Shown here one piece after another: positions 1 through 57,079 of a DNA stretch of 64,000 nucleotides (the first letter of the stretch is position 1; each line of letters starts with the position of its first letter). The DNA is from Vagococcus fluvialis bH819 (GTDB lineage Bacteria > Bacillota > Bacilli > Lactobacillales > Vagococcaceae). The notes beneath the pieces were generated by a model. The model did not search any database, had not been told where the DNA came from, and was given only the letters and a program-made list of their open reading frames with translations. The DNA lies in assembly GCF_900163795.1 (NCBI RefSeq), contig NZ_FWFD01000002.1, positions 1 to 64,000 of the forward strand, read 5' to 3'. The position numbers were made by a program, and so were the translations under genes.

Positions 1-143
1 AACGCCTTTTTCATCACTCTATGTAGTCTGGATTCAAAAGGCAGCTCCTGCGGCAGTTTCAGAAATAAAAATCAATTCAAAGGGCGCGAATTATTTTTTG
101 TTTCTTCCAACTGCTTGGAACTAAACGCCTTTTTCATCACTCT
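1..143 (-). repeat. Structured repeat R1 (full) plus start of a second copy
   Basis: Read on the minus strand, a full unit runs from about 143 to 26 and the left end of another unit (again AGAGTGATGAAAAAGGCG) starts at 20 and leaves the window. The unit has the family's nested arms: AGTTCC pairs with GGAGCT, GCAGTT with AACTGC, and an A/T-rich apical arm pairs around CGCGCCCTTTG. Its left end overlaps the galM stop codon (GAG TGA TGA), so the repeat supplies the end of the gene. Confidence 0.8.
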
Positions 144-1114
144 ACTTCATACACAGTCTTAAACACCTTAGTATGTCCTGGGTTTAGTTCAATCGAACCC
201 CATTTTGGGTGATTGACAATATCAGGTAGTTCTTGGGTTTCTATCGCAATGCCGATTTCAGAGTGCATGCTTTGTCCGTTCACTTTAAAGTCGTCATTAA
301 ATCCAGTTGTGGAGAAGATAACTGCTGCTTCTCGGTTAGAAGAGATGTTTAACTTACGACCACTTTTTGTTTCAGTTAAACAAATCTGTGGATGACTTGA
401 TTCTAAAATGAAGGCATCGTCAATTCCACCTGTTAATTTAGCTAAGTTATCAGCTAAAGAGGTTGGTTCTCTAAAATCATAACCTGTGTTATCAACAGTT
501 AGGATTTTTCCTGTGGGTAAGTTAATGCTATCTGTTTCAAGAATACCGTTACTTTTAACGAGTAAATCATGACTTGTAATGTCTCGTTTAGCGTTCCCTG
601 AAAGGTTAAAGTAAACATGATTGGTTGGGTTCACAATGGTTTGACTTTCTGAAGTCACCTTTGTGGTCATGACAACAGCTGTTGTTGTTAATTCATAAGT
701 ATTAACAACAGTGATTGGACCTGGGAAACCTGAAGCAGTATCCACTAAAGTAAACGCAACTTTTGTGTCACTGATCATCTCGTAGTCCCAAAATTGACAC
801 CACCAACCTTGACTGCCACCATGAATATGATGCTCGTCATGAAAGTTTTTTTCTAGAGTGATACCGTTCCACTCTGCATTTTTAATCCGACCGGCAACAG
901 GTCCCACTAAAGCACCAAACTGAGCATTGTCAGCTAAAATACTTTCAGGTGTATCTAAAGAAAGTAAGATATTTTCTTTGTTGCTATCTTTATCAGGGGT
1001 TACAAAGTTATGCCATCTTGCACCAAAGTTTAAGAAAGTTGCAGATAAATCACCATTTACTAAGGTAATATAAGCAATCCCTGTTTTTTCATCGATCTTA
1101 ATTTGATGAGACAT
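137..1114 (-). CDS. galM: Aldose 1-epimerase (maltose operon mutarotase)
   Basis: A 325-residue aldose 1-epimerase of normal length. It interconverts alpha and beta anomers of glucose/maltose in the cytoplasm. Visible family motifs are GRIKNA near residue 75, the HHIHGG segment near 95 with the conserved His, the NPTNHVYFNLSG segment around 162-173 with the second catalytic His, and the late acidic ETQELPD stretch carrying the catalytic Glu. It begins one base after the pgmB stop (TAAGATG), so translation is probably coupled to pgmB; it is the last gene of malP-pgmB-galM. In this pathway it supplies the anomer needed after inverting phosphorolysis of maltose (established for maltose operons). 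Its stop codon lies inside a structured repeat. Confidence 0.93.
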   Translation of the reverse strand: MSHQIKIDEKTGIAYITLVNGDLSATFLNFGARWHNFVTPDKDSNKENILLSLDTPESILADNAQFGALVGPVAGRIKNAEWNGITLEKNFHDEHHIHGGSQGWWCQFWDYEMISDTKVAFTLVDTASGFPGPITVVNTYELTTTAVVMTTKVTSESQTIVNPTNHVYFNLSGNAKRDITSHDLLVKSNGILETDSINLPTGKILTVDNTGYDFREPTSLADNLAKLTGGIDDAFILESSHPQICLTETKSGRKLNISSNREAAVIFSTTGFNDDFKVNGQSMHSEIGIAIETQELPDIVNHPKWGSIELNPGHTKVFKTVYEVE

Positions 1115-1115
1115 C

Positions 1116-1778
1116 TTATTTACTATTCCAAACAGTTTCTAAATAAGCTAAAGAAAGTTTGCTTGTATCTGGAACAATTGCAATATCGTCTCCTAAGTCT
1201 TTAGGTGATCCAACACCGACTGGTAGAGAACCACTTGCTTTAATGGCAGTAATACCAGCTTGAGAATCTTCAATCCCAACAGCTTCTTTAATTGAAACGT
1301 TCACTGCTTCAGCAGCCGCAACAAAAATATCTGGCGCTGGTTTTCCAGCAGCCACTGATCCTGGATCAACAATCGCATCGAAGAAATGGCTGATTTCCAT
1401 TTTATCTAATAAAAGAGGACCGTTTTTACTTGCAGAAGCTAAAGCAATTTTGATGTCAGCCGCTTTTAATTCTTCTAATAATTCTAAAATACCAGGGTAG
1501 ATATCTTTAGGTGAAATAGCTTGAATCATTTCAACATAGTTGTCATTTTTTACTTTAGCTAATTCAGCAAATTTTTCAGAACTGATTTCGCCAGCTTTAT
1601 TGCCATGTTCTAAAATTAAAGTTAGTGAATCTTCACGAGACACACCTTTTAATTTTTCGTTGAACGCACGATCAATTGAAATACCTAAATCATCCGCTAA
1701 TTTTTTCCAAGCTAAGAAATGGTACTCAGCTGTATCAGTAATAACACCATCTAAATCAAATAAAACACCTTTAAACAT
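1116..1778 (-). CDS. pgmB: Beta-phosphoglucomutase
   Basis: HAD-superfamily phosphatase/mutase that converts beta-glucose 1-phosphate, released by maltose phosphorylase, into glucose 6-phosphate. Motif I is FDLDGVITD with the nucleophile and acid/base aspartates, followed by the cap residues GVSREDS, motif II ASAS, the GKPAPDIF lysine motif and motif IV EDSQAGI. With ATG at 1778 the protein has 220 residues, the length of the lactococcal enzyme; the AAAGGA ribosome site lies 9 bases before it. An upstream ATG at 1796 would add six residues and overlaps that site, so I reject it. It is second in malP-pgmB-galM; the 250-base gap to malP holds a repeat and a hairpin pointing the other way. Confidence 0.95.
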
Positions 1779-1809
1779 AAAAAAACATCCTTTCATTTTT
1801 AAAAAGCAA

Positions 1810-1926
1810 GGTGGGTCAAAAGGCGTTTTGCTCCGAGCAACTGGAGGGAAAAGTGAACAATCGCTCTTTTTGATTGATCACTTTTCGTGAAGTTGCCGTG
1901 GGAGCTGCCTTTTTATCCCCCGACTA
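1810..1926 (+). repeat. Structured repeat R2 (full)
   Basis: Plus-oriented unit in the gap between malP and pgmB, antisense to that operon. Core is TTGCTCCGAGCAACTGGA ... GTGAAGTTGCCGTGGGAGC; the apical arm AAAAGTGA-ACAATC pairs with GATTGATCACTTTT; the outer arm AAAGGC pairs with GCCTTT. The unit ends in CCCCCGACTAAAAA and is followed by the ATTATTCATATAA spacer and terminator hairpin also seen at two other loci. Confidence 0.85.
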
Positions 1927-1949
1927 AAAAATTATTCATATAACAAGAC

Positions 1950-1983
1950 AGAGGCTAACGGTAGGGTCAGCCTCTATTTTTAT
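1950..1983 (+). terminator. Hairpin with T-run attached to repeat R2
   Basis: AGAGGCT (1950) pairs with AGCCTCT (1969-1975) and is followed by ATTTTTAT on the plus strand. No plus-strand gene precedes it, so it would stop antisense transcription. Read along the malP operon the hairpin lacks a U-tract and should not terminate. It belongs to the module shared with 38624 and 52131. Confidence 0.6.
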
Positions 1984-2029
1984 AGCTATCTTTATTTTAA
2001 TGTATTTTAAATCAGTTGTCTATACAAGT

Positions 2030-4294
2030 TTATTTTTTGACTGGGGTAGTCATTGTTCCTTCAACGTGATGAACGTCACCATAAACGTCAATATCAAGAG
2101 CGTCGCCACTTAATAAAGTGATCGTCACATTAGTATCAATTAAGACATGTAGTAAACGGCCGCGGTAGTTAATGTGGAACGCATATTTACTCCATTTTTC
2201 GGGTAAGAATGGGGCAAAGCTTAATTTTTCGTTGTAAGTCTTCATTTGAGCGAATCCTTGAACGATTCCTAACCAGCTACCTGTCATTGAAGTGATGTGT
2301 AATCCGTCATCTGTGTCGTTGTTGTAGTTATCAAGGTCTAGTCGGGCTGTCCGTTGATACATTTCAACTGCTTTTTCTTCCATGCCTAATTCAGCAGCTA
2401 AGATCGAGTGAATACATGGTGAAAGTGATGATTCATGGACTGTCATTGGTTCATAGAATTCAAAGTTTTTACGTTTTTCTTCCATAGTAAATTCATCGTT
2501 AAAGAAGTAAATTCCTTGAAGAACATCTGCTTGTTTGATGAAACATGAACGTAAGATGTGATCCCATGACCAATTTTGGTTTAAAGGTACATCAGTTGCT
2601 GCTAAATCAGAAACTGGCATTAATTCTTTATCTAAGAATGTATCGTGTTGAACGTAAACACCTAATTCATCATCTTTAGGGAAGTACATGTTTGCAATAA
2701 TATCTTCCCAATGGCTGATTTCTTCAGTCGTTAATTTAACCGTTGTTTCAGCTTGGTATTTTTTGTAGTTTTCTAACGTATATTTAAGAACCCAAACAGC
2801 GATGTAGTTAGTGTACCAGTTGTTATTAACGTTGTTTTCATATTCGTTAGGACCAGTCACGCCGTGCATCATGTATTGTTTGTTGCGTTTAGAATAGTGA
2901 ATACGGTCAGCCCAGAAACGAGCGATTTCAGAAAGGACTTCTAAACCTTCTGTTTTAATGTATTCAGTGTCGCCTGTGTAGTTTGTATAGTTATAAACCG
3001 CATAAGCAATGGCACCATTACGGTGAATTTCTTCAAAAGTAATTTCCCACTCATTATGACACTCCACACCAGTAAAAGTAACCATTGGGTATAAAGCACC
3101 TTTAAGTCCTTGTTGACGGGCATTGTGTTGTGCTTGTGGTAATTGATTGTGACGGTATTTTAATAAGTTTTTAGTTACACTTGGATCAGCTAAGGCTAAG
3201 TATAAAGGAACTGCGTAAGCTTCAGTATCCCAATAAGTTGCACCGCCGTATTTTTCACCAGTGAAGCCTTTTGGTCCAATGTTTAAGCGATCATCTTCGC
3301 CGTAGTAAGTAGAGAATAATTGGAATAAGTTAAAACGAATGCCTTGTTGTGCTTCGTCATCACCTTCGATAACCACATCAGCTAATTCCCAACGTTTTTC
3401 CCATGCAGTAGCGTGAGCTTGTTTTAATTCTTCAATAGAAGAAGCATTAACTTCTGTCATGATTGTTTGAGCCGCTGTTAATTGTTTCCCTTCTTCGATG
3501 TCACGACTTGTTGTAATGACTACTTTTTTATCTAGAGAAACCACGTCACCAGATTTAACGTCAAAAGTGAAGCTTTCAGTTGCTAAGAAGGCAGCTGTTT
3601 CTTTTTGACTTGTGTGAGTTCCAGTTGCTGTATTTTCCATTAAAGCAGTGATAGTAAATTGTTCAATACCAAAATTATTTGGAACCGTACGAGCAGTCAC
3701 AACATTTTCAGAAACTTGACGTTCTTCCCAGAACATTTCTTCGTAGTTGCTATCTTCGTTATGCACATTATTATCTAATTTAGAAACAACTTTGATTGTG
3801 CCATTTCCTTCTAATACTTCAGCTTTAAGTGAAACCACACCTAATTCTTTCGTCGTAATACTTAAGAAACGCTCAAAAGAGAATTTAACTTTCATGTCAC
3901 TCATTTCAATCGTGAAGTGACGAGATAAAACGCCATGTTCCATATCTAATTCTTGGTAGAAATCTGAAACAGTTTGTGTTGCTAAGTCAATTTTTGTATC
4001 GTTGATGTATAAGTCCATTGCGATGAAGTTAATAGCATTGATTACTTTACCAAAGTATTCTGGGTAACCATTTTTCCACCAACCCACACGTGTTTTGTCT
4101 GGATACCAAACACCTGCAATATAAGTTCCTTGATGATTGTCACCACTAAAACCTTCTTCAAAGTTTCCGCGCATTCCCATATAACCATTACCAGTACTTG
4201 TTAATGATTCTTGTAAGCGAATGTCTGAGTTATGTAATTCATTCGTTGTTAGTTTCCATGGATCGATATTAAATAATCTTTTTAAATGTTCCAC
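2030..4294 (-). CDS. malP: Maltose phosphorylase (GH65)
   Basis: A 754-residue glycoside hydrolase family 65 phosphorylase. It splits cytoplasmic maltose with phosphate into glucose and beta-glucose 1-phosphate. Evidence: N-terminal [19 protein letters not shown] signature of the family near residue 30-48, the catalytic general acid in GPNEYENN (Glu about residue 484, close to its place in characterised maltose phosphorylases), and the [12 protein letters not shown] region typical of GH65. Trehalose and kojibiose phosphorylases are related; the flanking maltose PTS, phosphatase and beta-phosphoglucomutase favour maltose. The start is a GTG at 4294 with GGGGGA nine bases upstream. First gene of malP-pgmB-galM, divergent from malT. 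Confidence 0.9.
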
Positions 4295-4328
4295 TTATAA
4301 TTTCCCCCTTAGATTAATGTATAAATCC

Positions 4329-4357
4329 ATGATAAACGCAAACGATTGCGAAATCAA
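4329..4357 (-). promoter_or_regulatory. malP promoter with LacI-type operator inside the spacer
   Basis: On the minus strand TTGATT (4357-4352), a 17-base spacer and TATCAT (4334-4329). The spacer is filled by CGCAAACGATTGCG (4337-4350), a near-palindrome centred on CG, the usual shape of LacI/MalR operators. A repressor bound here would block RNA polymerase. The likely ligand protein is the LacI gene at 7787. Confidence 0.75.
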
Positions 4358-4383
4358 CAATAAATAATTAGATAATGAATCTT

Positions 4384-4395
4384 GTTACCGGTAAC
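4384..4395. promoter_or_regulatory. Perfect palindrome GTTACCGGTAAC in malP/malT gap
   Basis: A 12-base perfect palindrome centred on CCGG between the two divergent promoters. Its half-site differs from the CGCAA/TTGCG sites on either side, so it could bind a second regulator or be a weaker LacI-family site. Function inferred only from position and symmetry. Confidence 0.45.
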
Positions 4396-4422
4396 GATTT
4401 GTTTTGTTTCTATTAATACATC

Positions 4423-4472
4423 TTTACAAAAAAAGTCTGGAGAGATATAATTTAATTACGAAACCGATTGCG
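4423..4472 (+). promoter_or_regulatory. malT promoter and downstream operator
   Basis: TTTACA (4423-4428), 17 bases, TATAAT (4446-4451). Just after it, where transcription would start, lies CGAAACCGATTGCG (4459-4472), closely similar to the operator in the malP promoter. Both divergent promoters therefore carry one copy, consistent with joint control by a MalR-type repressor. Confidence 0.75.
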
Positions 4473-4515
4473 TTAAGATGTGTTTGGCGCAATTGAATTA
4501 AGAAAGGTGAATAAA

Positions 4516-6690
4516 ATGAAAAAATTATTGAGTTTTGAGTTTTGGCAAAAGTTTGGTAAAGCCTTAATGGTTGTTATCGCAGTTATGCCAGCAGCAGGAT
4601 TGATGATTAGTATTGGTAAATCCATTCCACTAATCAATCCAGACATGCATATGTTAGTGACGACTGGTGGTGTTGTTGAGAACATTGGTTGGGCAATTAT
4701 TGGAAATCTTCATTTATTATTTGCATTAGCTATCGGTGGTAGTTGGGCGAAAGAAAAAGCCGGTGGAGCCTTTGCAGCTGGTATTGCTTTTGTGTTAATT
4801 AACCGTATTACAGGGTCAATTTTTGGTGTGACAAGTGACATGTTAAGTAACCCTGACGCTTACACACATACTTTATTTGGTACTAAAATTATGGTTAAAG
4901 GTTTCTTTACAAGTGTTTTAGAAGCACCAGCTTTAAATATGGGTGTTTTCGTTGGTATTATTGCCGGTTTTGTTGGGGCAATGGCCTTCAATAAATATTA
5001 CAATTATCGTAAATTACCAGATGCGTTATCATTCTTTAATGGTAAACGTTTCGTTCCTTTCGTGGTTATTCTTTGGTCAGTTCTTGTTTCATTAGCGTTA
5101 GCTATTATTTGGCCATTTATCCAATCAGGAATTAACAACTTTGGTTTATGGATTGCGACAAGTCAAGACACAGCACCAATACTAGCACCATTCCTTTATG
5201 GAACATTAGAACGTTTATTATTACCATTTGGTTTACACCATATGTTAACTATTCCAATTAACTATACACAACTTGGTGGTACTTACGAAATTCTTTCAGG
5301 TGCACAAGCAGGAACAATGGTTTATGGACAAGATCCATTATGGCTAGCATGGGCAACTGATTTATTAAACTTGAAGCAATCGGGTGATATGAGTCAATAC
5401 AATCATGTTTTGACAAACTGGACACCAGCACGTTTCAAAGTAGGTCAAATGATCGGTTCTTCAGGTATTTTAATGGGTATGGCTTTTGCAATGTATAAAA
5501 ACGTTGATGCTGATAAAAAATCTCAATATAAATCAATGTATTTTTCAGCAGCACTTGCAGTATTCTTAACAGGTGTTACAGAGCCTTTAGAATTTATGTT
5601 TATGTTTGTGGCAATGCCGTTGTACGGAGTGTACGCAGTGATTCAAGGGTTAGCATTTGCTATGGCAGATATCATCAACTTACGTGTCCATTCATTCGGT
5701 AACATTGAGTTATTAACAAGACTGCCAATTTCAATCAAAGCAGGATTGGGTATGGATATTGTTAATTTTGTGATTTGTACGATTGTCTTTGGTGTTGGAA
5801 CATATTTCTTAGCTAACTTCTTAATTAAGAAATTTAACTTTGGAACACCAGGACGTAATGGTAACTATGAAGTAGATGGTGCGACAGATACAACAGCAAC
5901 CAATACAGATGCTTCTGGACTTAACCAACAAGTGATTGATGTAATTAATTTATTAGGTGGTAAAGAAAATATTGCTGATGTGGATGCGTGTATGACTCGG
6001 TTACGTGTTTCTGTGAAGGATCGTGGTTTAGTTGGTTCCGAAGAAGCATGGAAAAAATGTGGTGCTATGGGCTTAATTATTAAAGATAATGGCGTTCAAG
6101 CAGTTTACGGACCTAAAGCGGACATCTTAAAATCAGATATTCAAGACGCATTAGATGCAAATATTGAGATTCCAAAATCAAATTTTAATGATACATCAGT
6201 TGAAAAACAAGCTGAAAGTAAACAAGCAATAAATAAAGAAGTCGCATTACTTGCAGTAGCAGCAGGAGAAGTTATCCCAATTGAAGAAGTGAAAGATGAA
6301 GTCTTTTCACAAAAAATGATGGGTGACGGATTTGGTGTGAACCCAATGAGTGGTGAAGTTGTTTCACCAGTAGCAGCTGAAATTATGACAGTCTTTCCTT
6401 CAAAACATGCGATTGGTTTAGTGACAGAAGATGGCTTAGAAATCTTAGTTCACATGGGACTAGATACAGTAGAGATGGAAAACTCAGCCTTTGATGTAGT
6501 TGTTAAAGAAGGCGACAAAGTAGAAGCAGGTCAATTATTAGCAAAAGCTGATTGGAATGCAGTAAAAAAAGCAGGAAAAGGCACAACAATTGTGGTAGTA
6601 TTTACCAATAGTGATAAATTACAAGCATTAACATTAGACCAAGTCGGACAACAAACAAAAGCTAGCGTGATAGGAAAAGTTAGTTTGTAA
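4516..6690 (+). CDS. malT: Maltose-specific PTS transporter EIICBA
   Basis: A 724-residue three-domain PTS permease. EIIC (about 1-440, hydrophobic, several membrane segments) resembles the glucose/maltose branch; EIIB has its phosphorylated Cys in DACMTRLRV at about residue 492; the C-terminal EIIA has KHAIGLV and the phosphohistidine in LVHMGLDTVEM at about 646. It imports maltose as maltose 6'-phosphate (established for MalT of E. faecalis). ATG at 4516 follows GAAAGGTG; an upstream in-frame ATG at 4480 lies in the operator-proximal leader and lacks a ribosome site. Divergent from malP, followed by mapP and the LacI regulator. Confidence 0.9.
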   Translation: MKKLLSFEFWQKFGKALMVVIAVMPAAGLMISIGKSIPLINPDMHMLVTTGGVVENIGWAIIGNLHLLFALAIGGSWAKEKAGGAFAAGIAFVLINRITGSIFGVTSDMLSNPDAYTHTLFGTKIMVKGFFTSVLEAPALNMGVFVGIIAGFVGAMAFNKYYNYRKLPDALSFFNGKRFVPFVVILWSVLVSLALAIIWPFIQSGINNFGLWIATSQDTAPILAPFLYGTLERLLLPFGLHHMLTIPINYTQLGGTYEILSGAQAGTMVYGQDPLWLAWATDLLNLKQSGDMSQYNHVLTNWTPARFKVGQMIGSSGILMGMAFAMYKNVDADKKSQYKSMYFSAALAVFLTGVTEPLEFMFMFVAMPLYGVYAVIQGLAFAMADIINLRVHSFGNIELLTRLPISIKAGLGMDIVNFVICTIVFGVGTYFLANFLIKKFNFGTPGRNGNYEVDGATDTTATNTDASGLNQQVIDVINLLGGKENIADVDACMTRLRVSVKDRGLVGSEEAWKKCGAMGLIIKDNGVQAVYGPKADILKSDIQDALDANIEIPKSNFNDTSVEKQAESKQAINKEVALLAVAAGEVIPIEEVKDEVFSQKMMGDGFGVNPMSGEVVSPVAAEIMTVFPSKHAIGLVTEDGLEILVHMGLDTVEMENSAFDVVVKEGDKVEAGQLLAKADWNAVKKAGKGTTIVVVFTNSDKLQALTLDQVGQQTKASVIGKVSL

Positions 6691-6693
6691 ATA

Positions 6694-6856
6694 AGGGTGG
6701 CATAAAAATCGCTTTGCTCCGAGCAACTGGAAGAAGTGAAAAACAATCCGCACCTTTGGGATTGTTTTTCACTTGTGAAGTTGCCGAAGGAGCAGATTTT
6801 TATGCCCCGACTAAATAAGGATGGTGGAAATGACGTTTTGCTCCAAGCAACTGGGG
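6694..6856 (+). repeat. Structured repeat R3 (full) plus left-half copy
   Basis: Full unit 6694-6812 starts four bases after the malT stop. This is the clearest copy: GGCATAAAAATC pairs with GATTTTTATGCC over 12 bases, TGCTCC with GGAGCA, GCAACT with AGTTGC, and AAGTGAAAAACAATCC with GGATTGTTTTTCACTT over 16 bases around GCACCTTTG. At 6819-6856 the left half repeats (GGTGGAAATGACGTTTTGC, CTCCAAGCAACTGGGG) and stops without its right arm. Confidence 0.9.
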
Positions 6857-6897
6857 TAATTGCAGACTTTACATCCAAAATGATTAAAACCAAGTAT

Positions 6898-6936
6898 AAG
6901 AAAAGGCTATGGCACGATGCCTGGCCTTTTTCTTTT
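6898..6936 (+). terminator. Terminator between malT and mapP
   Basis: AAGAAAAGGC pairs with GCCTTTTTCTT around a loop with inner GGCA/TGCC pairing. It may end part of the malT transcripts before mapP, whose ribosome site begins only a few bases downstream. Confidence 0.6.
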
Positions 6937-6954
6937 GAATAGGAAGGATATAAA

Positions 6955-7773
6955 ATGAAAGTTATTAGTTTAAACACCCATAGTTGGATTGAAGAAAAAC
7001 CTTTGGAAAAATTAGTTCAAATAGGGGATTTTATTTTAAAAGAAGGAGCAGAAGTGATTGCTCTTCAAGAAGTAAATCAAAGAATTTCGGCAGACGTGAT
7101 TAACCCAGATGGATTTTATTGTTCATATGAAGGAGCAGAAGTTGAAATTAAAGCAGATAATTTTGCTAAATTGTTAGTTGATTATTTAAAAGAAAAAGGG
7201 CAAAATTTTTATTGGGGTTGGACATGCAGTCATATCGGTTATGATATTTATGATGAAGGTTCTGCTATTCTTTCAAAATATCCTTTTGAAGCCGAAAGCT
7301 TACTTGTGTCACCAACTGAGGATAGAGCAGATTACCATACAAGACGTATTTTACTAGCACATTTAAATGAAGAGAAGCTGACAGTCGGAAGTTGTCATTA
7401 CTCTTGGTATTCAGAAAATCCAGAAGAAGGCTTTATTTATGAATGGAGTAAATTATTAGTAAACACTGAAAAAATAGGTCATCAAATTTTACTACTAGGT
7501 GATTTTAATGCGCCGGCTCACATTGAAGGGGCAGGGTATTCTTTAGTTAGTCAAACTTATACAGATGTGTATCATTTAGCAAAAGAAAAGAAAGGCCAAT
7601 TTACAGTAGAAAGTAACATTGATGGCTGGGCAGATAATAAAGAAAGGTTGCGAATTGATTTTGGTTTTGTTTTAAACCCAGTTGAAGTCGCAACCTACCA
7701 AGTTATTTTTAATGGTGTAGATGGTCCTATCGTTAGTGATCATTTTGGTATTTTATTAGATATGAAATTTTAA
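6955..7773 (+). CDS. mapP: Maltose 6'-phosphate phosphatase (EEP family)
   Basis: A 272-residue endonuclease/exonuclease/phosphatase-fold protein. Metal and catalytic motifs are visible: SLNTH near the start, ALQEVNQR (Glu ligand) around 38, DEGSAILSK near 98, LLGDFNAP around 178 and VSDHFGI near the C-terminus. In E. faecalis a protein of this family next to malT dephosphorylates maltose 6'-phosphate so that maltose phosphorylase can act; position and family fit that role. The family also contains nucleases and sphingomyelinases, so context carries the assignment. Start ATG follows AGGAAGGA. The LacI gene follows after 13 bases. Confidence 0.85.
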   Translation: MKVISLNTHSWIEEKPLEKLVQIGDFILKEGAEVIALQEVNQRISADVINPDGFYCSYEGAEVEIKADNFAKLLVDYLKEKGQNFYWGWTCSHIGYDIYDEGSAILSKYPFEAESLLVSPTEDRADYHTRRILLAHLNEEKLTVGSCHYSWYSENPEEGFIYEWSKLLVNTEKIGHQILLLGDFNAPAHIEGAGYSLVSQTYTDVYHLAKEKKGQFTVESNIDGWADNKERLRIDFGFVLNPVEVATYQVIFNGVDGPIVSDHFGILLDMKF

Positions 7774-8850: not shown

Positions 8851-8886
8851 AAGAGGACTAGCATGCAGACTAATCCTCTTTTTTGT
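8851..8886 (+). terminator. Terminator after malR
   Basis: AGAGGA pairs with TCCTCT, extended by TAG/CTA across a short mismatch, followed by TTTTTT. A TATAAT box at 8814-8819 lies only about 35 bases upstream, but its -35 is poor, so I do not call a separate small RNA. Confidence 0.7.
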
Positions 8887-8948
8887 CGTCCGGGTTCAAA
8901 AGGCAACTTCTCCAGTTGCTTAGAGCTACGTGCCATTTTCACTACTTT
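8884..8948 (-). repeat. Structured repeat R4 (compact form)
   Basis: Minus-oriented unit about 64 bases long. Left end AGTAGTGAAAATGGCACG, TAGCTCTAAGCAACT, then directly AGTTGCC and TTTTGAACCCGGAC. The whole apical arm is missing, leaving GCAACT-GGAGA-AGTTGC. It lies downstream of hicB in the sense direction. Confidence 0.75.
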
Positions 8949-9727: not shown

Positions 9728-9766
9728 AATCCGGATTCAAAAGACAGCGCCTTTTTCACCACTCTA
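9728..9766 (-). repeat. Structured repeat R5 (minimal remnant)
   Basis: Minus strand: left end AGAGTGGTGAAAAAGGCG joined directly to the right end CTGTCTTTTGAATCCGGA. All inner arms are gone, leaving only the outer ends of the family unit. Confidence 0.6.
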
Positions 9767-22986: not shown

Positions 22987-23568
22987 ATGAAAGTACATAA
23001 AGCAGAAATCGTGATTAGTGCGGTTCAGCCAGAACAATATCCAAAAACAAAATTACCAGAAATTGCCTTAGCAGGGCGTTCAAATGTGGGGAAATCATCA
23101 TTTATCAATACATTAATTAGTCGTAAAGGACTAGCCAGAACATCAGGGAAACCAGGGAAAACACAAACTTTAAATTTCTATTTAATTGAAGAAGCACTAC
23201 ATTTTGTAGATGTTCCAGGCTATGGCTATGCTAAAGTTTCTAAAACAGAACGTGTTAAATGGGGAAAAATGATTGAGACTTATATCACAGAAAGAGAACA
23301 ACTAAAAGCAGTCGTTTCTCTAGTTGATTTTCGCCATGATCCCTCTGAAGAAGATGTTCAAATGTATAATTTCTTAAAGTATTATCAAATTCCAGTTATT
23401 GTTGTAGCAACAAAAAGTGATAAAATAAAACGTAGCCAATGGAATAAGCATGAAGCAGCGATCAAAAGAAAATTAGTTTTTGATCCAACAGACGATTTTA
23501 TTATTTTTTCTTCTGAAACAAAAGAAGGTAAAGAGCAAGCTTGGGAAGCGATTGAAAGCTTTTTATAA
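22987..23568 (+). CDS. ysxC: Ribosome biogenesis GTP-binding protein YsxC/EngB
   Basis: A 193-residue GTPase needed for assembly of the large ribosomal subunit. G1 [10 protein letters not shown], switch region [14 protein letters not shown]3 [11 protein letters not shown]4 TKSDK and G5 SSET are all present. In many Firmicutes it follows clpX; here it stands alone after a wall-hydrolase gene. The ribosome site is weak (AAGTGGCG). A structured repeat begins right behind the stop codon. Confidence 0.95.
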
Positions 23569-23721
23569 AAGCATGTTGAAAAGGGCGTTTAGCTTTAAGC
23601 AATTGGAAGAACGTACCAACAATCCGTGGGTTTGGGATTGATGATACGTTTTGAAATTGTCGAAGAAGCTGCCATTTGAAGCTGAACAAAAAAAGCATGT
23701 TGAAAAGGGCGTTTAGCTTCA
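23569..23721 (+). repeat. Structured repeat R6 (full) plus left-half copy
   Basis: Full unit 23569-23690 directly follows ysxC. Its core has changed on both sides together: AGCTTTAAGCAATTGGA against TTGAAATTGTCGAAGAAGCT, so GCAACT/AGTTGC of other copies is GCAATT/AATTGT here. The CAATCC/GGATTG apical stem is kept around GTGGGTTTG. The left end GCATGTTGAAAAGGGCG recurs exactly 124 bases later (23695) as a left-half fragment. Confidence 0.85.
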
Positions 23722-23740
23722 ATTCATTAAGAGAATATAC

Positions 23741-23773
23741 GAAAAAAGATGCCTAAAACTAGGCATCTTTTTC
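23741..23773. terminator. Bidirectional terminator overlapping a stop codon
   Basis: GATGCCTA (23748-23755) pairs with TAGGCATC (23760-23767), flanked by A6 and T5. It serves ysxC (plus) and the 55-residue gene (minus), whose TAG stop is part of the stem. Confidence 0.85.
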
Positions 23774-27779: not shown

Positions 27780-27803
27780 AAACAAAGGTGTTTTAAACCT
27801 TTG
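27780..27803 (-). terminator. Terminator between transporter ATPase and aminotransferase
   Basis: CAAAGGT pairs with ACCTTTG and is followed on the minus strand by TTTTTTATTATT. The aminotransferase may be expressed by partial read-through. Confidence 0.75.
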
Positions 27804-36865: not shown

Positions 36866-38527
36866 ATGAGATATAAAAAATTAATTGGTTCAATAGTTAT
36901 CTTGAGTTCAGTTGTGCTCTTAGCTGGTTGCTCAAGTGGAGGAGAGAGTAAAAAAAATAAAACAAAGAAAAATGCTACCACAGAGCAAGTTGCAAAATTT
37001 GGTATTCCGCAAGAAGTAGCGAGTATTGATCCAGCTAAGGCAACAGATAAAGTCAGTTTTGGTGTATTGAATCAAATATACGAAGGTTTTTACCGTATGG
37101 ATAAAGATAATCGGCCAGAACCGGCAGGAGCTAAAGAACTAGCCAAAGTAAGTGATGATGGTTTGACTTATACATTAATATTACGTGAAGAAGCAAAATG
37201 GAGTAATGGAGAACCCGTTTTAGCTAAGGATTATGTCTATGCTTGGCAACGTGTAGTTAACCCAGAAACAGCTTCAGAGTATGCCTATTTAATTGAAAAT
37301 GTAAAAAATGCGAAAGCTATTTCAGCGGGAGATAAAAAACCAGAAGAATTAGGAATAGAAGCAGTTAGTGATCATGAAATTAAAATTACACTAGATAATG
37401 CGATTCCTTATTTTGATTCATTATTAGCTTTTCCAACTTTTTTCCCATTAAATCAAAAAGCAGTTGAAGAGTTTGATAAAGATTTTGCCAATTCAAGTGA
37501 AAAAACTATCTATAATGGTCCGTTTGTTTTATCTGAGTTTGATGGGCCTGGGTCAGATATTGAATGGAAATATTTAAAAAATAAGGACTATTGGGATAAA
37601 GAAAATGTGAAGATTAATGAAATTCAAGCGACCGTTGTTAAAGAAGGGTCGACAGCATTAAATTTATATGAAGATGGTCAATTAGACGATGTGATTGTAA
37701 CAGGTGAGTTAGCAAAACAATATCGTGAGGACCCAAACTTTAATGGAGAAAAAGATGGTCGTGTCATCTATATTGAGCCAAATCGTGAAAGCAAAAAAGC
37801 CCCATTTGATAATTTGAATTTCCGTAAAGCACTATACTATTCAGTAGATAATAAAGCTATTGTGGATACTATTTTAGGGGATGGTTCAGAACCAGTTACA
37901 GGAATTGTTCCAAAGACATTGGCAGTTAATCCAGAAACGAAAAAAGACTTTGTTGAAGAGTCTGGAGAATACAAAACTTATGATGAGAAAAAAGCAAAAG
38001 AATATTTAGAAAAAGCCAAAAAAGAATTAAATACAACAGAATTTAGTTTTGATATCTTAACGGATGATAACGAATCAACTAAAAAATTAGCCGAATATTT
38101 ACAAGGGGCATTTAAAGATAAATTAGGGGTTAAAACAACTGTTACACCAGTAACTAAACCAATCCGTTTAGAACGAACAACTAAAGGTGATTTTGATATG
38201 GTGGTAACAGGATGGGGAGCAGATTACAATGATGTGAGTTCATTCTTAGATTTATTTGAAACAGGAAATAGTTATAATAAAGGGAAATACTCTAATAAAA
38301 ACTATGACAAATTAATCCAAGATGCGAAGGTTGCTCATGCTACAGATGAAAAAGCGCGTTGGGCAGATTACTTAGCGGCTGAAAAAATTCTTTTAGAAGA
38401 AGATTCGGCAGTCATCCCGGTTTATCAAGTAGTAGAGGGACATTTAAGAAATCCTAATTTAACGGGGTACATTGCACATAGTGCGGGTGCTTCTTACGAG
38501 TACAAATATTTAGAGATGAAGGAATAA
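36866..38527 (+). CDS. Oligopeptide-binding lipoprotein (OppA-like), solitary
   Basis: A 553-residue SBP_bac_5 protein. Lipobox LLAGC (Cys about 22), a short Lys-rich linker, then the typical FGIPQEVASIDPAKA start, YEGFYRMDKDN, EWSNGEPVLAKDYVYAWQR-like region and the WGADYNDVSSFLDLF segment. It binds peptides outside the membrane for an Opp importer. No permease genes adjoin; it is similar along its length to the OppA at 50375 and probably uses the same oppBCDF. AGGGGGATG precedes the start. Confidence 0.9.
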   Translation: MRYKKLIGSIVILSSVVLLAGCSSGGESKKNKTKKNATTEQVAKFGIPQEVASIDPAKATDKVSFGVLNQIYEGFYRMDKDNRPEPAGAKELAKVSDDGLTYTLILREEAKWSNGEPVLAKDYVYAWQRVVNPETASEYAYLIENVKNAKAISAGDKKPEELGIEAVSDHEIKITLDNAIPYFDSLLAFPTFFPLNQKAVEEFDKDFANSSEKTIYNGPFVLSEFDGPGSDIEWKYLKNKDYWDKENVKINEIQATVVKEGSTALNLYEDGQLDDVIVTGELAKQYREDPNFNGEKDGRVIYIEPNRESKKAPFDNLNFRKALYYSVDNKAIVDTILGDGSEPVTGIVPKTLAVNPETKKDFVEESGEYKTYDEKKAKEYLEKAKKELNTTEFSFDILTDDNESTKKLAEYLQGAFKDKLGVKTTVTPVTKPIRLERTTKGDFDMVVTGWGADYNDVSSFLDLFETGNSYNKGKYSNKNYDKLIQDAKVAHATDEKARWADYLAAEKILLEEDSAVIPVYQVVEGHLRNPNLTGYIAHSAGASYEYKYLEMKE

Positions 38528-38530
38528 AAG

Positions 38531-38659
38531 AAGAAAAAGTCTAACTGATTAGTATTGGTGAAGTTGTCGTGAGAGTGGACTTTTTATTCCCTGACTATTA
38601 AAAATTATTCATATAAATAAAAATGAGGCTGACATTTGAGTCAGTCTCAACTTTTTTTT
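38531..38659 (+). repeat. Structured repeat R7 (eroded left arm) with terminator module
   Basis: Right half GTGAAGTTGTCGTGAGAGTG, GACTTTTTATTCCCTGACTA is clear; the left half is reduced to AAAAAGTC, which still pairs with GACTTTTT. It starts right behind the oppA-like stop. It is followed by AAAATTATTCATATAAATAA and the terminator GAGGCTGAC/GTCAGTCTC + TTTTTTTT (38625-38659), the same module as at 1926-1983 and 52131-52190. Confidence 0.75.
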
Positions 38660-38717
38660 CTTTTTTTTGATTATGAATTAAGTGTCTTAAAAATAACGGA
38701 ATAATAGGAGGAAAATT

Positions 38718-40818: not shown

Positions 40819-40857
40819 TAGTAGAAAGAAGAGAAGAAAAACGTTCTCTTCTTTTTT

Positions 40858-41098
40858 TTCTCCAGTTACTCAGAGCAAAGCAATTTTCAAACCACCTTTA
40901 ACGGGATTTAAAAATCTGCTCCTTCGGTAACTTCAGCAATAGGGATCAATCGTGAAGAGATCGATTGTTCCCTATTGCTTCCAGTTACTCAGAGCAAAAC
41001 GATTTTCAAACCACCTTTGTGATTAACGGGGTTCAAAAGGCAGCTCTTACGACAACTTCAGCTACTTAGAGCTAAACACCTTTTTCACCACCTTTGTG
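40858..41098 (-). repeat. Structured repeat array R8 (compact, full, left-half)
   Basis: Three units on the minus strand fill most of the 372-base gap between the SDR gene and the fumarate-reductase-like gene. In unit order: compact copy (41098-41024; TAGCTCTAAGTAGCT, AGTTGTCGTAAGAGCTGCC), full copy (41021-40902; CTGAGTAACTGGA paired with GAAGTTACCG; apical arm AGCAATAGGGAACAATCG with CGATTGATCCCTATTGCT), and left-half fragment (40898-40860). Here GTAACT/AGTTAC replaces GCAACT/AGTTGC, a paired change. Nothing else is seen in the gap apart from the next gene's ribosome site. Confidence 0.85.
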
Positions 41099-41190: not shown

Positions 41191-42705
41191 ATGAAAAACA
41201 AAATGTTGAAATCAGTTACAACGAGTTTGGCGGTATTATTTCTACTAGCTGGTTGTGGTGGAGCTAAAGATACAGCTAAGAAAGAAGAAAAGAAAGATAC
41301 GAAAGCTTCTAGCACTGAAGTAACAACTGGAGCATCAGAAAAAGGTTATACTGATCCTAAAGAATTAAAAGATGAATATGATATCGTGATTGTCGGTGCT
41401 GGTGGAGCAGGTATGGCAGCAGCAATTGAAGCTAAAAATGATGGCAAAAATCCAGTTATTTTAGAAAAAATGCCGGTTGCTGGTGGAAATACACTGAAAT
41501 CTTCAAGTGGGATGAACGCTTCAGAAACTAAATTCCAAAAAGAACAAGGGATTAAAGACAGCAACGATAAATTCTATGAAGAAACACTTAAAGGTGGACA
41601 TGGAACAAACGATAAAGAATTATTGCGTTATTATGTAGATAATTCAGCAGATGCCATCGACTGGTTAGATTCAATGGGAATTAAATTAAACAACTTAACA
41701 ATCACAGGTGGGATGAGCGAAAAAAGAACTCACCGACCAGAAGATGGTTCAGCAGTTGGTGGTTATTTAGTTGATGGCTTACTTAAAAATGTTTACGAAA
41801 AAGAAATCCCAATTTTTGTTAATGCTGATGTGACTGAAATTACTGAAAAAGATGGTACAGTTGATGGTGTTAAAGTAAAAGTTGAGAAAAAAGAAAAAGA
41901 AATCAAAAGTAAAGCGGTAGTCGTAACAACTGGTGGATACGGTGCTAACCCTGAAATGCTAGAGAAAGAAAAACCTGAACTAAAAGGCTATGTTACTACT
42001 AACCAAGCCGGTAGTACAGGAGATGGTATCAAGATGATTGAAAAATTGGGTGGACAAACTGTGGATATGGATCAAATCCAAATTCACCCAACTGTTCAAC
42101 AAGATAAAGGTATCTTAATTGGTGAAGCAGTTCGTGGTGAAGGTGGTATCTTAGTTTCTCAAGAAGGTAAACGTTTTGTTAACGAAATGGATACACGTGA
42201 TAATGTGTCAGCTGCAGAAAATAAATTAAAAGAAAAATCTTCTTACTTAATTTTTGATGCTGGCGTAAAAGAACGTGTTAAAGCAATTGATTTCTACGAA
42301 AAACAAGGATTTGTTAAAAAATCAGATTCAATTGAAGGTTTAGCTAAAGAGTTAGACATGGACGAAAAAGCATTAAACGAAACAGTAACAACATGGAACA
42401 AAGCCGTTGCAGATAAAAAAGATACAGAATTTGGGCGTGCAACTGGTATGGACAAAGGCTTAGAAAAAGCAGACTACTATGCAATCAAAATCGCACCTGG
42501 TATTCACTATACAATGGGTGGCGTGAAAGTAAATACTAAAACTGAAGTCTTAGATAAAGACGGCAATGCAATCAAAGGTCTTTACGCATCAGGCGAATTA
42601 ACAGGCGGATTACACGGTGAAAACAGAATCGGTGGAAACTCAGTAGGAGATATCATCGTATTCGGACGCCAATCAGGAAAAGAATCAGCAGCCTTTGTAA
42701 AATAG
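41191..42705 (+). CDS. Fumarate-reductase-like flavoprotein, lipoprotein form
   Basis: A 504-residue FAD protein of the flavocytochrome c/fumarate reductase family. Lipobox LLAGC (Cys about 22), Lys/Ser/Thr linker to about 50, FAD motif DIVIVGAGGAGMAAAIEA, GGNTLKSSSGMNA, catalytic-type region IHPTVQQDKG...RGEGGILVS, TRDN and the closing HGENRIGGNSVGDIIVFGR. It is anchored outside the membrane. Unlike Listeria FrdA it lacks an N-terminal FMN-binding domain, so electrons must come from another protein. The acceptor could be fumarate, urocanate or similar. GGAGAG precedes the ATG. Its TAG stop overlaps a repeat. Confidence 0.85.
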   Translation: MKNKMLKSVTTSLAVLFLLAGCGGAKDTAKKEEKKDTKASSTEVTTGASEKGYTDPKELKDEYDIVIVGAGGAGMAAAIEAKNDGKNPVILEKMPVAGGNTLKSSSGMNASETKFQKEQGIKDSNDKFYEETLKGGHGTNDKELLRYYVDNSADAIDWLDSMGIKLNNLTITGGMSEKRTHRPEDGSAVGGYLVDGLLKNVYEKEIPIFVNADVTEITEKDGTVDGVKVKVEKKEKEIKSKAVVVTTGGYGANPEMLEKEKPELKGYVTTNQAGSTGDGIKMIEKLGGQTVDMDQIQIHPTVQQDKGILIGEAVRGEGGILVSQEGKRFVNEMDTRDNVSAAENKLKEKSSYLIFDAGVKERVKAIDFYEKQGFVKKSDSIEGLAKELDMDEKALNETVTTWNKAVADKKDTEFGRATGMDKGLEKADYYAIKIAPGIHYTMGGVKVNTKTEVLDKDGNAIKGLYASGELTGGLHGENRIGGNSVGDIIVFGRQSGKESAAFVK

Positions 42706-42812
42706 AGTGAATTTAAAATCGGTTTGCCCCAAGCAACTGGAGGAAATAATAAAGAAGTCCGTGCTCTTTGGATTTTTTATTATTTGTGAAGTTGCCGAAG
42801 GGGCTGCTTATA
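42704..42812 (+). repeat. Structured repeat R9 (full)
   Basis: Left end TAGAGTGAATTTAAAATCG overlaps the preceding TAG stop. Inner arms GCCCC and GGGGC replace GCTCC/GGAGC of other copies, a paired change; GCAACT/AGTTGC are kept, and AAATAATAAA pairs with TTTATTATTT. The right outer arm is eroded. Confidence 0.85.
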
Positions 42813-42817
42813 TTAAG

Positions 42818-42846
42818 AAGAGTCTATTAAATTAGGCTCTTTTTTT
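42818..42846 (+). terminator. Terminator after repeat R9
   Basis: AAGAGTCTA pairs with TAGGCTCTT (one G-U) followed by TTTTTTGG; it ends the fumarate-reductase-like transcript. TATACT at 42850 directly behind may be the -10 of the next gene. Confidence 0.8.
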
Positions 42847-46075: not shown

Positions 46076-46080
46076 AAAGA

Positions 46081-49604: not shown

Positions 49605-49640
49605 AGTCTGGGCTAATCAACTGGCTCAGACTATTTTTTT
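49605..49640 (+). terminator. Terminator between mptD and manO
   Basis: AGTCTGGGC pairs with GCTCAGACT (one mismatch) followed by ATTTTTTT. manO is probably reached by partial read-through. Confidence 0.8.
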
Positions 49641-49687
49641 ATGAATATGATATAATAATATAAAAAAGAAACGGAGAGATCAAACAA

Positions 49688-52054: not shown

Positions 52055-52130
52055 AATTTGCCTATTTATTTTCAATAGAAAATTTATCAAGTAGTTGGTA
52101 AGGAGAATTATTATCTTTGACAAGTTAATA

Positions 52131-52165
52131 AAAAGAGACTGACCCAAATGTCAGTCTCGTTTTTA
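52131..52165. terminator. Bidirectional terminator of oppA and the DUF3899 gene
   Basis: AGAGACTGAC pairs with GTCAGTCTC; A-run on the left and TTTTTATTT on the right make it work both ways. Read on the minus strand it is the terminator part of the repeat-plus-terminator module (spacer ATTATTCGTATAAATAA). Confidence 0.88.
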
Positions 52166-52192
52166 TTTATACGAATAATTTTAAAAGTCAGC

Positions 52193-52275
52193 GGATAAAA
52201 AAAGTCTACTCCCATGACAACTTCATCATTTGATTTCTAGTTGCTTGGAGCAAAATGACTTTTAACCACCTAATT
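52193..52275 (-). repeat. Structured repeat R10 (shortened apical arm)
   Basis: Minus strand, just behind the DUF3899 stop: TTAGGTGGTTAAAAGTC, TTTTGCTCCAAGCAACT, a short AT-rich tip, TGAAGTTGTCATGGGAGTA and GACTTTTTTTATCC. Outer arms AAAAGTC/GACTTTT pair. It continues into the shared spacer and terminator. Confidence 0.8.
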
Positions 52276-52284
52276 TCTTAGTCC

Positions 52285-52629: not shown

Positions 52630-52715
52630 AAATAAATACCTTCTTACAAACGTGATAAATTAACTCTAATTCATTTATTAATCATTGTCAAAATATTTTA
52701 AAGGGGGAAAAGTAA

Positions 52716-54688: not shown

Positions 54689-54702
54689 GATGGTGATGAA
54701 AA

Positions 54703-55740
54703 ATGGAAAAAGTATTAGAAGTTAAAGACTTAAATATCTCATTTGATACTTTTGCTGGTAAGGTTCACGCCATTCGTGGGGTCAACTTTGATTTGCATAA
54801 AGGTGAAACACTAGCAATTGTAGGAGAATCAGGTTCAGGAAAATCAGTAACAACAAGAACAATCATGCGTTTATTAGCCAATAATGCCAATATAGATGAG
54901 GGTAAGATTCTATTTAAAGGGGAAGATTTGGTTCATAAAACAGAGAAAGAGATGCAATCGATTCGTGGGAAAGACATTGCCATGATTTTCCAAGACCCGA
55001 TGACATCTCTAGATCCAACTATGAACATAGGGAATCAAGTCGCTGAATCTTTAAGGAAACATCGTAAAATTTCAAAAAAAGATGCGTTAGATCGTGCCTT
55101 AGATTTATTAAATTTAGTAGGAATTCCAAATGCTGAAAAACGGTTAAAAAATTATCCCCATCAATTTTCAGGTGGGCAGCGTCAACGGATTGTGATTGCT
55201 ATTGCTTTGATTTGTTATCCAGAAGTTTTGATTGCTGATGAGCCAACCACAGCGCTTGATGTAACAATCCAAGCACAAATTATTGATTTAATGAAAGATA
55301 TTCAGAAAAAAATTCAAACATCGATTATCTTTATTACCCATGATTTAGGGGTAGTAGCTAACGTGGCTGATCGTGTAGCGGTTATGTACGGTGGTCGAAT
55401 TATTGAAATTGGAACAGCGGATGAAATTTTTTATAACCCACAACATCCATATACGTGGGGCTTATTAAGCTCAATGCCTACTTTAGATAGCAGAGGTCAA
55501 GAGCTATATGCAATTCCAGGTTCGCCACCAGATTTACTGGATCCACCAACAGGAGATGCTTTTTATCCACGTAATGAATATGCGATGCAGATTGATACAG
55601 AAGAGGCACCACCATTCTTTGATGTTTCCCCGACGCATAAAGCTGCTACTTGGTTATTAGCACCTAACGCACCAAAAGTAACGCCACCAGATGAGATTGT
55701 TCGTCGTCGTGAGAAATACAAAGGACGCTTTGGTGCGTAG
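54703..55740 (+). CDS. oppD: Oligopeptide ABC transporter ATPase OppD
   Basis: A 345-residue ATPase: Walker A GESGSGKSV, Q-loop FQDPMTSLDP, signature FSGGQRQR, Walker B VLIADEPTTALD, switch FITHD, and the C-terminal oligopeptide-transporter extension (HPYTWGLLSSMP, GSPPDLLDPPTGDAF). Relatives carry an iron-sulfur cysteine cluster there; none is seen here. 14 bases behind oppC. Confidence 0.95.
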   Translation: MEKVLEVKDLNISFDTFAGKVHAIRGVNFDLHKGETLAIVGESGSGKSVTTRTIMRLLANNANIDEGKILFKGEDLVHKTEKEMQSIRGKDIAMIFQDPMTSLDPTMNIGNQVAESLRKHRKISKKDALDRALDLLNLVGIPNAEKRLKNYPHQFSGGQRQRIVIAIALICYPEVLIADEPTTALDVTIQAQIIDLMKDIQKKIQTSIIFITHDLGVVANVADRVAVMYGGRIIEIGTADEIFYNPQHPYTWGLLSSMPTLDSRGQELYAIPGSPPDLLDPPTGDAFYPRNEYAMQIDTEEAPPFFDVSPTHKAATWLLAPNAPKVTPPDEIVRRREKYKGRFGA

Positions 55741-55755
55741 AAAGGGGGAAATCTG

Positions 55756-56709
55756 ATGGAATCTATAAAAGATAAAAAATTATTGTTAGAAGTAAATAAT
55801 TTGAAACAATATTTTAATGTTGGCCGTCATGATGAAGTGAAAGCAGTGGATGATATTAGCTTTTCGATTTATGAAGGTGAAACATTTGGTTTAGTAGGAG
55901 AATCTGGTTGTGGAAAATCAACAACAGGACGAAGTGTTATTCGTTTGTATCATCCAACAAGTGGTGAGATTAAATTTAACGGGGAAGACGTTTCAAAAAT
56001 TAAAGGACGTAAAAACCTCAATCAATTTAGACGAGATGTTCAAATGATTTATCAAGATCCCTACGCCTCTTTAAACCCAAGGATGAAAGTGAAAGATATT
56101 ATTGCTGAGGGAATTGATGTTCATGGTTTAGCTAAAACGGATGCAGATCGAACAAATCGAGTCAATGAGTTATTAAAAACTGTAGGACTTGATCCAAGTC
56201 ACGGGACACGTTATCCTCATGAATTCTCAGGTGGCCAGCGTCAACGTATTGGTATTGCTCGTGCTTTAGCAGTAGAGCCTAAGTTTATTATTTGTGATGA
56301 ACCAATCTCGGCATTAGATGTTTCGATTCAAGCACAAGTAGTTAACTTATTGCAAGAACTTCAAGAAAAAGAGAATTTGACTTATCTTTTTATCGCCCAT
56401 GATTTATCTATGGTGAAATATATTAGTGATCGAATCGGTGTCATGTATTATGGTAAATTAGTTGAAGTTGGATCTGCAGAAGAGATTTATAATCATGGAC
56501 TACATCCTTATACAGAAAGCTTATTATCCGCTATTCCGTTGCCAGATCCTGATTATGAACGAACACGTCAACGTATCACTTACACACCACAAGTGGATGA
56601 TGGAAAGATTCGTTCGTTACGAGAAGTAGCACCAGAACATTTTGTTTATTGTAGTGATGATGAAGTTGAAATGTATCGCAATAAACTCCAAGCAAAGAAA
56701 GATCAGTAG
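55756..56709 (+). CDS. oppF: Oligopeptide ABC transporter ATPase OppF
   Basis: A 317-residue ATPase: Walker [22 protein letters not shown], signature FSGGQRQR, Walker [13 protein letters not shown], switch FIAHD, then [12 protein letters not shown] extension. Works as heterodimer with OppD. AAAGGGGG precedes the ATG; last gene of oppBCDF. Confidence 0.95.
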
Positions 56710-56741
56710 TTATTTTCCCCCGCTACTGTTTCTTATAAATA

Positions 56742-56789
56742 CTAAAGAGAGGATGACAGTTTTAAAGTCATCCTCTCTTTAGTTTTTTT
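56742..56789 (+). terminator. Terminator of the opp operon
   Basis: CTAAAGAGAGGATGAC and its exact complement form a 16-base stem around a nine-base loop, followed by TTTTTTT. Confidence 0.95.
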
Positions 56790-56794
56790 GCGTG

Positions 56795-57079
56795 TCCTAG
56801 TAGTATGGAGCAGAACGATTGTTTATCCACTATGTTTTAGTTAGGGATAAAAAATCTACTCCTTCGATAACTTCACTAATATCAAGCAATCCAAAGAACG
56901 TATTGTTTGATATTACCTCCAGTTACTTGGAGCAAAACGATTGTTTATCCACCCTGTTTTAGTTAGGGATAAAAAATCTACTCCTTCGATAACTTCACTA
57001 ATATCAAGCAATCCAAAGAGCGTATTGTTTGATATTACCTCCAGTTACTTGGAGCAAAACGATTGTTTATCCACCCTAT
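56795..57079 (-). repeat. Structured repeat array R11: two full copies in 122-bp tandem plus left-half
   Basis: Minus strand behind scrR: two nearly identical full units with a period of 122 bases (GTTTATCCAC at 56821, 56943 and 57065) and a third, left-half unit that loses its pairing after CTGCTCC. Arms: GGATAAACAATC with GATTTTTTATCC, TGCTCC with GGAGTA, AGTAACT with AGTTATC, TAATATCAA with TTGATATTA. It fills the gap between the opp terminator and scrR. Confidence 0.92.

Follow-up and report, generated by a model that had tools for sequence, protein, structure and literature searches.

A dispersed nested-hairpin repeat of Vagococcus fluvialis, akin to double-hairpin repeats of Enterococcus faecalis, bears the covariation of a single folded strand of fixed polarity

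The first 64,000 nucleotides of contig NZ_FWFD01000002.1 of Vagococcus fluvialis bH819 (RefSeq assembly GCF_900163795.1, forward strand; hereafter the window) contain dispersed copies of a non-coding repeat that can fold into nested hairpins. We show that this fold is conserved and accompanied by compensatory changes, that the folded strand has a fixed polarity, that the copies have a preferred place behind genes, that related genomes and plasmids differ by whole units, that junctions filled in one genome are empty in its sister and, by model matches, that the repeat is kin to double-hairpin repeats of Enterococcus faecalis. A non-autonomous mobile element of the EFAR/Efa-1 type, recognized as a folded single strand, is in our judgement the best explanation of these results, and a moderately probable one.

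The unit, about 116 nt long, runs 5' to 3' from GTG to GACT. Its outermost parts are an outer stem of variable letters, a four-base bulge (GNTN) and the stem TGCTCC/GGAGCA or AGCTCC/GGAGCT; further inwards come an internal loop in which one A is invariant, a stem (GCAACT/AGTTGC, for example) and GGA facing GA. The apex consists of a stem of highly variable letters followed by an apical stem around CAATC/GATTG, and a CCGA loop is among the conserved unpaired bases of the unit. The 16-nt core GCTCCRAGCAACTGGA, with at most one mismatch, was found at 82 places in the 2.95-Mb genome that contains the window (G000) and the reversed pattern at none; the repeat is not a chance pattern. A single 116-nt unit used as query returned 50 places in the same genome at E≤1e-3. 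No Rfam family reached its gathering score over the window, and the best permissive Rfam match over positions 1700-7000 was far below the cut-off. CRISPR-like and riboswitch readings were dropped, there being no spacers, associated genes or Rfam match.

Pairing was assessed in a MAFFT alignment (A1) of 35 G000 units, from which one internally deleted row and rows more than 95% identical had been excluded beforehand. Changes on both sides were present in 27 of the 38 pairs; 96.9% of cells were paired, compared with 80.9% after shuffling and 29.9-51.1% with slid partners, and the covariation score was 0.505 against 0.199 for shuffled and at most 0.100 for slid controls. In a wide alignment of 63 distinct rows from many genera, 36 of the 38 pairs showed double changes, with 94.6% pairing versus 62.5% shuffled and at most 50.9% slid; this alignment was fitted to the model, as were A2, A3 and A4, which are therefore biased towards it, whereas A1 and a 166-unit set were made with MAFFT. 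All four Watson-Crick pairs occur in some columns of the variable stems. Among 50 independent pairs of closely similar units, which differ by 0.5 to 12%, 36 double changes were observed, 34 of them from one Watson-Crick pair to another, against 5.1 expected under independence; of the single changes in these pairs, 50 kept a G·T and 34 broke a pair.

G·T and A·C combinations are unequal in number. Across the 166 units G·T numbered 347 and A·C 42; with the two G·T-rich pairs left out, the counts were 192 and 42 (about 4.6 to 1), and the wide alignment gave 121 and 38. Since a G·T on one strand is an A·C on the other, folding of both strands would give equal counts; one strand of fixed polarity is therefore the folded strand, and the bias fits RNA or single-stranded DNA alike. 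Thirty units labelled antisense with respect to their neighbouring gene (three of them at contig ends, with orientation unsettled) had 97.8% standard pairs, compared with 97.4% for sense units, and a G·T to A·C ratio of 59:8. The direction of host transcription is thus not the cause of the bias. The conserved fold is strongly supported. An earlier interpretation of the letters by themselves (the sequence-only reading) had proposed a dispersed, non-coding family of nested hairpins under selection as a folded single strand; the arm changes that it listed are present in the sequence, and its proposal is now backed by the shuffled and slid controls, the compensation between close copies and the bias of G·T over A·C.

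The placement of the repeat was examined in 121 arrays fetched from G000 and from a sister genome, G005, the nearest sampled congener (YsxC 96% identical); one G005 array was counted twice (L106, L166). A gene on the same strand lay upstream in 99 of them, at a median gap of 5 nt, and for 88 of these 99 arrays the distance from the stop codon was -8 to +14 nt; of the 22 others, two were without a gene call, being at contig ends. The downstream gene was on the opposite strand in 87 of the 121. Of 116 arrays, 85 had a T-tailed hairpin within 160 nt past their final full unit, as opposed to 68 of 419 random windows. At distant loci, a same-strand stop codon was found within 60 nt upstream in 34 of 55 cases and not in the other 21, a raw count with no null model. 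Arrays thus sit mostly in sense, between a stop codon and an intrinsic terminator. They end in a 5' part-copy, mostly model positions 1 to about 29-54, or in an internally deleted unit, and a few terminal part-copies are now perfect T-tailed hairpins (L163, L184, L186, L146). The few bases ahead of the first unit resemble the spacer that precedes the second; an identity of 8 or more of 9 nt was found in 20 of 82 arrays, compared with 1.8% of mismatched pairings. When the classical features of a miniature inverted-repeat transposable element (MITE) were looked at, we found that the outer stem of the unit pairs although its letters vary, and that flank and spacer match over 5-8 nt.

Within the window, copies were located with a covariance model, R1, built only from copies of G000 and run with filters off, which gave 21 matches up to E 1. 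These comprise eight full units (about 116 nt; 79 to 124 bits) and seven shortened copies of the same polarity as the full units; five weaker matches are the opposite strand of full units, as the complement of a palindrome, and a further match at 61633-61735 (E 0.18) was left out of the copy count. The copies and their adjuncts are as follows.

1-24, minus strand: part-copy comprising the 5' end of a unit and truncated where the contig ends; it adjoins the unit at 25-140 as ACATAGAGTGATGAAAAAGGCGTT.
25-140, minus strand: full unit at the end of a galM-like gene, 137-1114(-); R1 119.3 bits.
1811-1925, plus strand: full unit of the type with unit, tail and terminator; R1 119.7 bits.
1926-1975, plus strand: AT-rich tail of the subfamily and terminator hairpin (AGAGGCTAACGGTAGGGTCAGCCTCT, then a T-run); the tail recurs behind units L002-L008.
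6697-6812, plus strand: full unit, 6 nt past the stop codon of a phosphotransferase system (PTS) gene, 4480-6690(+); R1 124.4 bits.
6821-6881, plus strand: shortened copy with 5' arm and remnant of the 3' arm, resting on nhmmer (E 2.6e-6), its R1 score being 12.5 bits, E 0.99.
8887-8945, minus strand: internally deleted unit; R1 24.7 bits.
9728-9762, minus strand: internally deleted unit, outer arms only; R1 23.5 bits.
23573-23688, plus strand: full unit, 5 nt past the stop codon of ysxC, 22987-23568(+); R1 107.9 bits.
23689-23746, plus strand: spacer and 5' part-copy ahead of a terminator (repeat D8).
38528-38596, plus strand: deleted unit directly past the stop codon of a gene at 36866-38527(+), with subfamily tail and terminator; R1 19.8 bits.
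About 40839-40895, minus strand: 5' part-copy ahead of a terminator; R1 20.2 bits, nhmmer match 40837-40895 with E 1.6e-7.
40899-41014, minus strand: full unit; R1 115.7 bits.
41024-41091, minus strand: unit with an internal deletion; R1 60.1 bits.
42707-42821, plus strand: full unit adjoining the end of the gene 41191-42705(+); R1 79 bits.
52186-52270, minus strand: unit with the apical arm deleted; R1 51.4 bits.
56800-56838, minus strand: 5' part-copy ahead of a terminator hairpin, read by eye in the sequence past the last unit.
56839-56952, minus strand: full unit, second of a tandem pair (97% identical 122-nt repeat); R1 112.6 bits.
56961-57074, minus strand: full unit, first of the tandem pair, 7 nt past the stop codon of a gene at 57082-58068(-); R1 112.4 bits.

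Copies are thus present at all eleven places that the sequence-only reading had named, but those near 8884, 9728, 38531 and 52193 are internally deleted relics. The family that it described is real; its survey missed the tandem units with their terminal part-copies, the position between stop codon and terminator, and the state of those four relics. One subfamily (L002-L009; window 1926-1975, 38597-38660 and 52150-52186) always has a conserved AT-rich tail and a terminator resembling GAGGCTGACATTTGGGTCAGCCTC, so that unit and terminator apparently move together. One relative has a longer unit-bearing segment that is itself tandemly repeated, with a further conserved stretch between the copies (L039:1262-1613). 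At least six contig ends of the G000 assembly fall inside repeat arrays (the start of C9, which is the contig of the window, both ends of C5, the start of C14 and the ends of C15 and C1), and array lengths in this genome may therefore be understated.

Comparison of gene junctions, which the sequence-only reading had suggested, revealed sites that are filled in one of the two sister genomes and empty in the other. At the 1810 junction, G000 has the unit with its tail and terminator and G005 has only another hairpin, GAGAGTGGGACAATCGTGTCACACTCTC. The converse is seen near 27.8 kb, where G000 has only a T-tailed hairpin (window 27780-27796) and G005 carries a 66-bit unit of Enterococcus type (L105:15339-15452). 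A second such unit is found at L138:1731-1844(-); the genus therefore has at least two subfamilies. Two junctions, at 6694 and behind ysxC (23569), hold a unit next to a shortened copy in G000 and only the shortened copy in G005; no recognizable copy was found behind ysxC in the other 12 congeners, that is, in 12 of the 14 genomes of the genus. Among 55 fetched G000 arrays, 21 had a counterpart among the fetched G005 arrays, some being matched by one flank only and two loci being split by contig ends. Units in orthologous arrays are often unrelated and sometimes orthologous with paired changes. Finally, an Enterococcus and a Lactococcus plasmid with flanks 99.4% identical differ by exactly one 126-bp unit. 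Turnover at fixed junctions involves the gain, loss and exchange of whole units.

Searched genome-wide and in relatives, as the sequence-only reading had likewise suggested, R1 matched 17 of 29 genomes of the family at E≤1e-3. At this threshold G000 had 95 matches among 128 candidates scored and G005 at least 128, all 128 scored candidates matching; seven of the 14 genomes of the genus had none. The 16-nt core gave a similar picture, with 82 occurrences in G000, 141 in G005, 5, 3 and 1 in three congeners, and none in nine others. In the order, 119 of 395 genomes matched at E≤0.01; they belong to seven families and to 34 of the 80 genera sampled. Nine candidates per genome were scored, so that copy numbers are floors. 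In the class, 10 of 299 genomes matched at E≤1e-4, eight of them from three families outside the order. At one locus (L268), in a GC-rich genome of another family of the class, far from the order, the same unit occurs together with a second unit-like copy and a part-copy; an identical spacer, AATAAAGAA, precedes each of two successive copies. The element was also found in 117 plasmid records (107 Enterococcus, 6 Lactiplantibacillus, 3 Lactococcus and 1 Lacticaseibacillus), and two unannotated records labelled Listeria phage match as well.

Outside the genus, R1 gave nine matches, with E from 1.9e-12 to 2.2e-7, in the 747-kb E. faecalis record NZ_CP143580.1; three more, at E 0.66-0.88, were not counted. 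This record, labelled a plasmid, has chromosomal-looking genes (nhaC, pcp) beside its nine repeat copies. All seven E. faecalis copies that were measured span 170 bp, counted from a 5' GAG, which is AAG in one copy, up to where a second hairpin ends on the 3' side. The sequence-only reading had recognized no match to a known family, a statement that must be withdrawn, since these repeats have the size and double hairpin of Efa-1 and EFAR. EFAR, attributed to Venditti and colleagues in 2007, is reportedly mostly 170 bp long, with two stem-loops in an L-shape and stem-loop targets that are largely lost on integration. For E. faecalis, a systematic survey lists one intergenic structured family, Efa-1, with 163 bp, 65 copies and an adjacent pair of stem-loops (Cozzuto et al. 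2008, PMC2267715), and another source refers to EFAR as a MITE of Enterococci (PMC3733652). The E. faecalis copies are like Efa-1/EFAR in their similar length, their two adjacent hairpins and their intergenic position. In G000, the subfamily of unit, tail and terminator approximates a double stem-loop of 163-170 bp, but the tandem arrays, which are the majority, do not: G000 units are mostly in tandem with a terminal 5' part-copy, in place of a single unit with a terminator, and the unit sequences differ greatly. A stem-loop target like that reported for EFAR would fit the hairpins at the empty 1810 site of G005 and the empty 27.8-kb site of G000, two sites in diverged genomes. As a kind the family is already known, its kinship with the E. 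faecalis double-hairpin repeats being shown by these model matches, and we would place the window copies with EFAR/Efa-1, as a branch that has diverged, EFAR being matched by its description and not by published letters. What is new here are the matches across 34 of 80 genera of the order and three outside families, the tandem arrays that close in a part-copy, and the strand-specific covariation. Our literature search, which mostly did not reach subscription papers, turned up no report of this wider family.

Other small repeats are comparable by description. RUP and BOX of Streptococcus pneumoniae are likewise small, structured, intergenic and without a protein of their own, and the sequence-only reading was right to offer them as analogues only, at the level of description. 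BOX is modular and only its middle box is repeated, whereas whole units repeat in the present family. RUP is tied to IS630-Spn1 with TA targets, and YPAL/RU-2 of Yersinia is described as 168 bp long, containing inverted repeats, making duplications that vary in size, using targets that coincide with dyad symmetry or adjoin it and, judging by empty and filled sites, recently mobile (PMC2229807). By this description YPAL/RU-2 resembles the present repeat, in different bacteria. Integron attC sites, recombined as a folded strand by an integron integrase, were also considered, because the present element is a bulged hairpin that lies behind genes.

On the reading that we prefer, the unit would act as a folded single strand, its almost free-letter stems lying between conserved unpaired bases (the GNTN bulge, the invariant A, GGA/GA and the CCGA loop), and an enzyme supplied in trans would recognize this fold. 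Intrinsic terminators behind genes would serve as landing sites, most insertions being in sense and just past the stop codon; units would also settle beside older copies, and this would build arrays of whole units ending in a decayed part-copy and a terminator; such arrays may then gain, lose and exchange whole units. Several points weigh against a mobile element. No mobilizing enzyme was found, a parent insertion sequence having been sought only through PF01797 and PF00078. Classical terminal inverted repeats are weak, and the sign of a junction duplication is the 5-8-nt match of flank and spacer, which local tandem duplication explains too. Many of the sister differences (6694, 23569) oppose a whole unit to a part-copy, where deletion between direct repeats is possible, and the 21 of 55 shared array places indicate that turnover is partly an exchange within old places. 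Compensation between close copies at one place also fits a host function. In addition, the control for terminators consisted of random windows and not of matched intergenic ones, and the stop-codon distances have no null model. Among candidates for the mover, a reverse transcriptase was rejected: PF00078 (RVT_1) occurs in 6 of 17 carrier genomes of the family and 5 of the 12 others, with one or more in each of G000 and G005, and copy number is unrelated to it across the 29 genomes. An autonomous long version was sought among lone matches to the 3' or 5' half; those followed up (L244, L245) are short deleted units without a gene, in a search that was not exhaustive.

The observations in favour of a mobile element must be weighed against three other explanations. 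The arrays might be cis-acting RNA of the 3' untranslated region, protecting the transcript end, cut by RNase or terminating transcription, which spread rarely and are kept by the host for their function. Sense placement behind stop codons, the terminators downstream, the part-copies turned into perfect T-tailed hairpins and the compensation between close copies all agree with this. However, antisense-labelled units pair as well as sense ones, which weakens a purely untranslated-region function; moreover, half of the genomes of the genus are without a match, 12 of 14 are without a recognizable copy behind ysxC, and orthologous arrays often hold unrelated units. We consider this explanation unlikely. 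Less likely still is spread without any mobility in trans, by recombination between direct repeats and ectopic conversion, with template switching correcting the arms and so mimicking selection. The whole-unit differences bounded by direct repeats, the exchange of units at fixed places and the mini copies that are perfect palindromes even at the usual bulge (L163, L184) argue for it. Yet arm correction should erase bulges and internal loops, and these persist across the order; nor does it give a reason for G·T over A·C, and the junctions that are filled in one genome and copy-free in the other (1810; 27.8 kb in G005) require arrival or clean loss.

The remaining alternative, that these are REP/BIME-like repeats moved by an IS200/IS605-type (RAYT, Y1) transposase, we hold to be very improbable. 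Enzymes of this type use imperfect hairpins with conserved bulges, strand polarity and intergenic dispersal, which the bulged hairpin, the polarity and the dispersal of the present repeat fit, and the likeness to REP/BIME extends to dispersed hairpins, arrays and a one-strand fold. But the present units are longer, no GTAG or CGTC tag was noted, and PF01797 (Y1 transposase) has no match in G000 and G005, the two richest genomes, for which it was rejected as the mover; across the family it occurs in 6 of 17 carrier genomes and in 9 of 12 non-carriers.

A bolder form of the mobile-element reading can be put forward tentatively, although we consider it unlikely: a class-wide family defined by its fold only, with EFAR its one described member, would be copied and placed as a folded single strand whose polarity is fixed, and the enzyme would be neither of the Y1 nor of the reverse transcriptase type but outside the known systems that use hairpins, with terminators as landing pads and a cassette-like exchange of units, making new terminators for the host. 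A repeat known from one Enterococcus species appears to be old and widespread in Bacilli, with hundreds of copies in two genomes, and the model could serve Rfam and genome annotation, which are now without this family. Because a covariance model, empty and filled junctions and a plasmid pair differing by one unit are at hand, three questions become testable: what moves small hairpin elements without a gene of their own, which of the strands is recognized, and how terminators arise and change behind genes.

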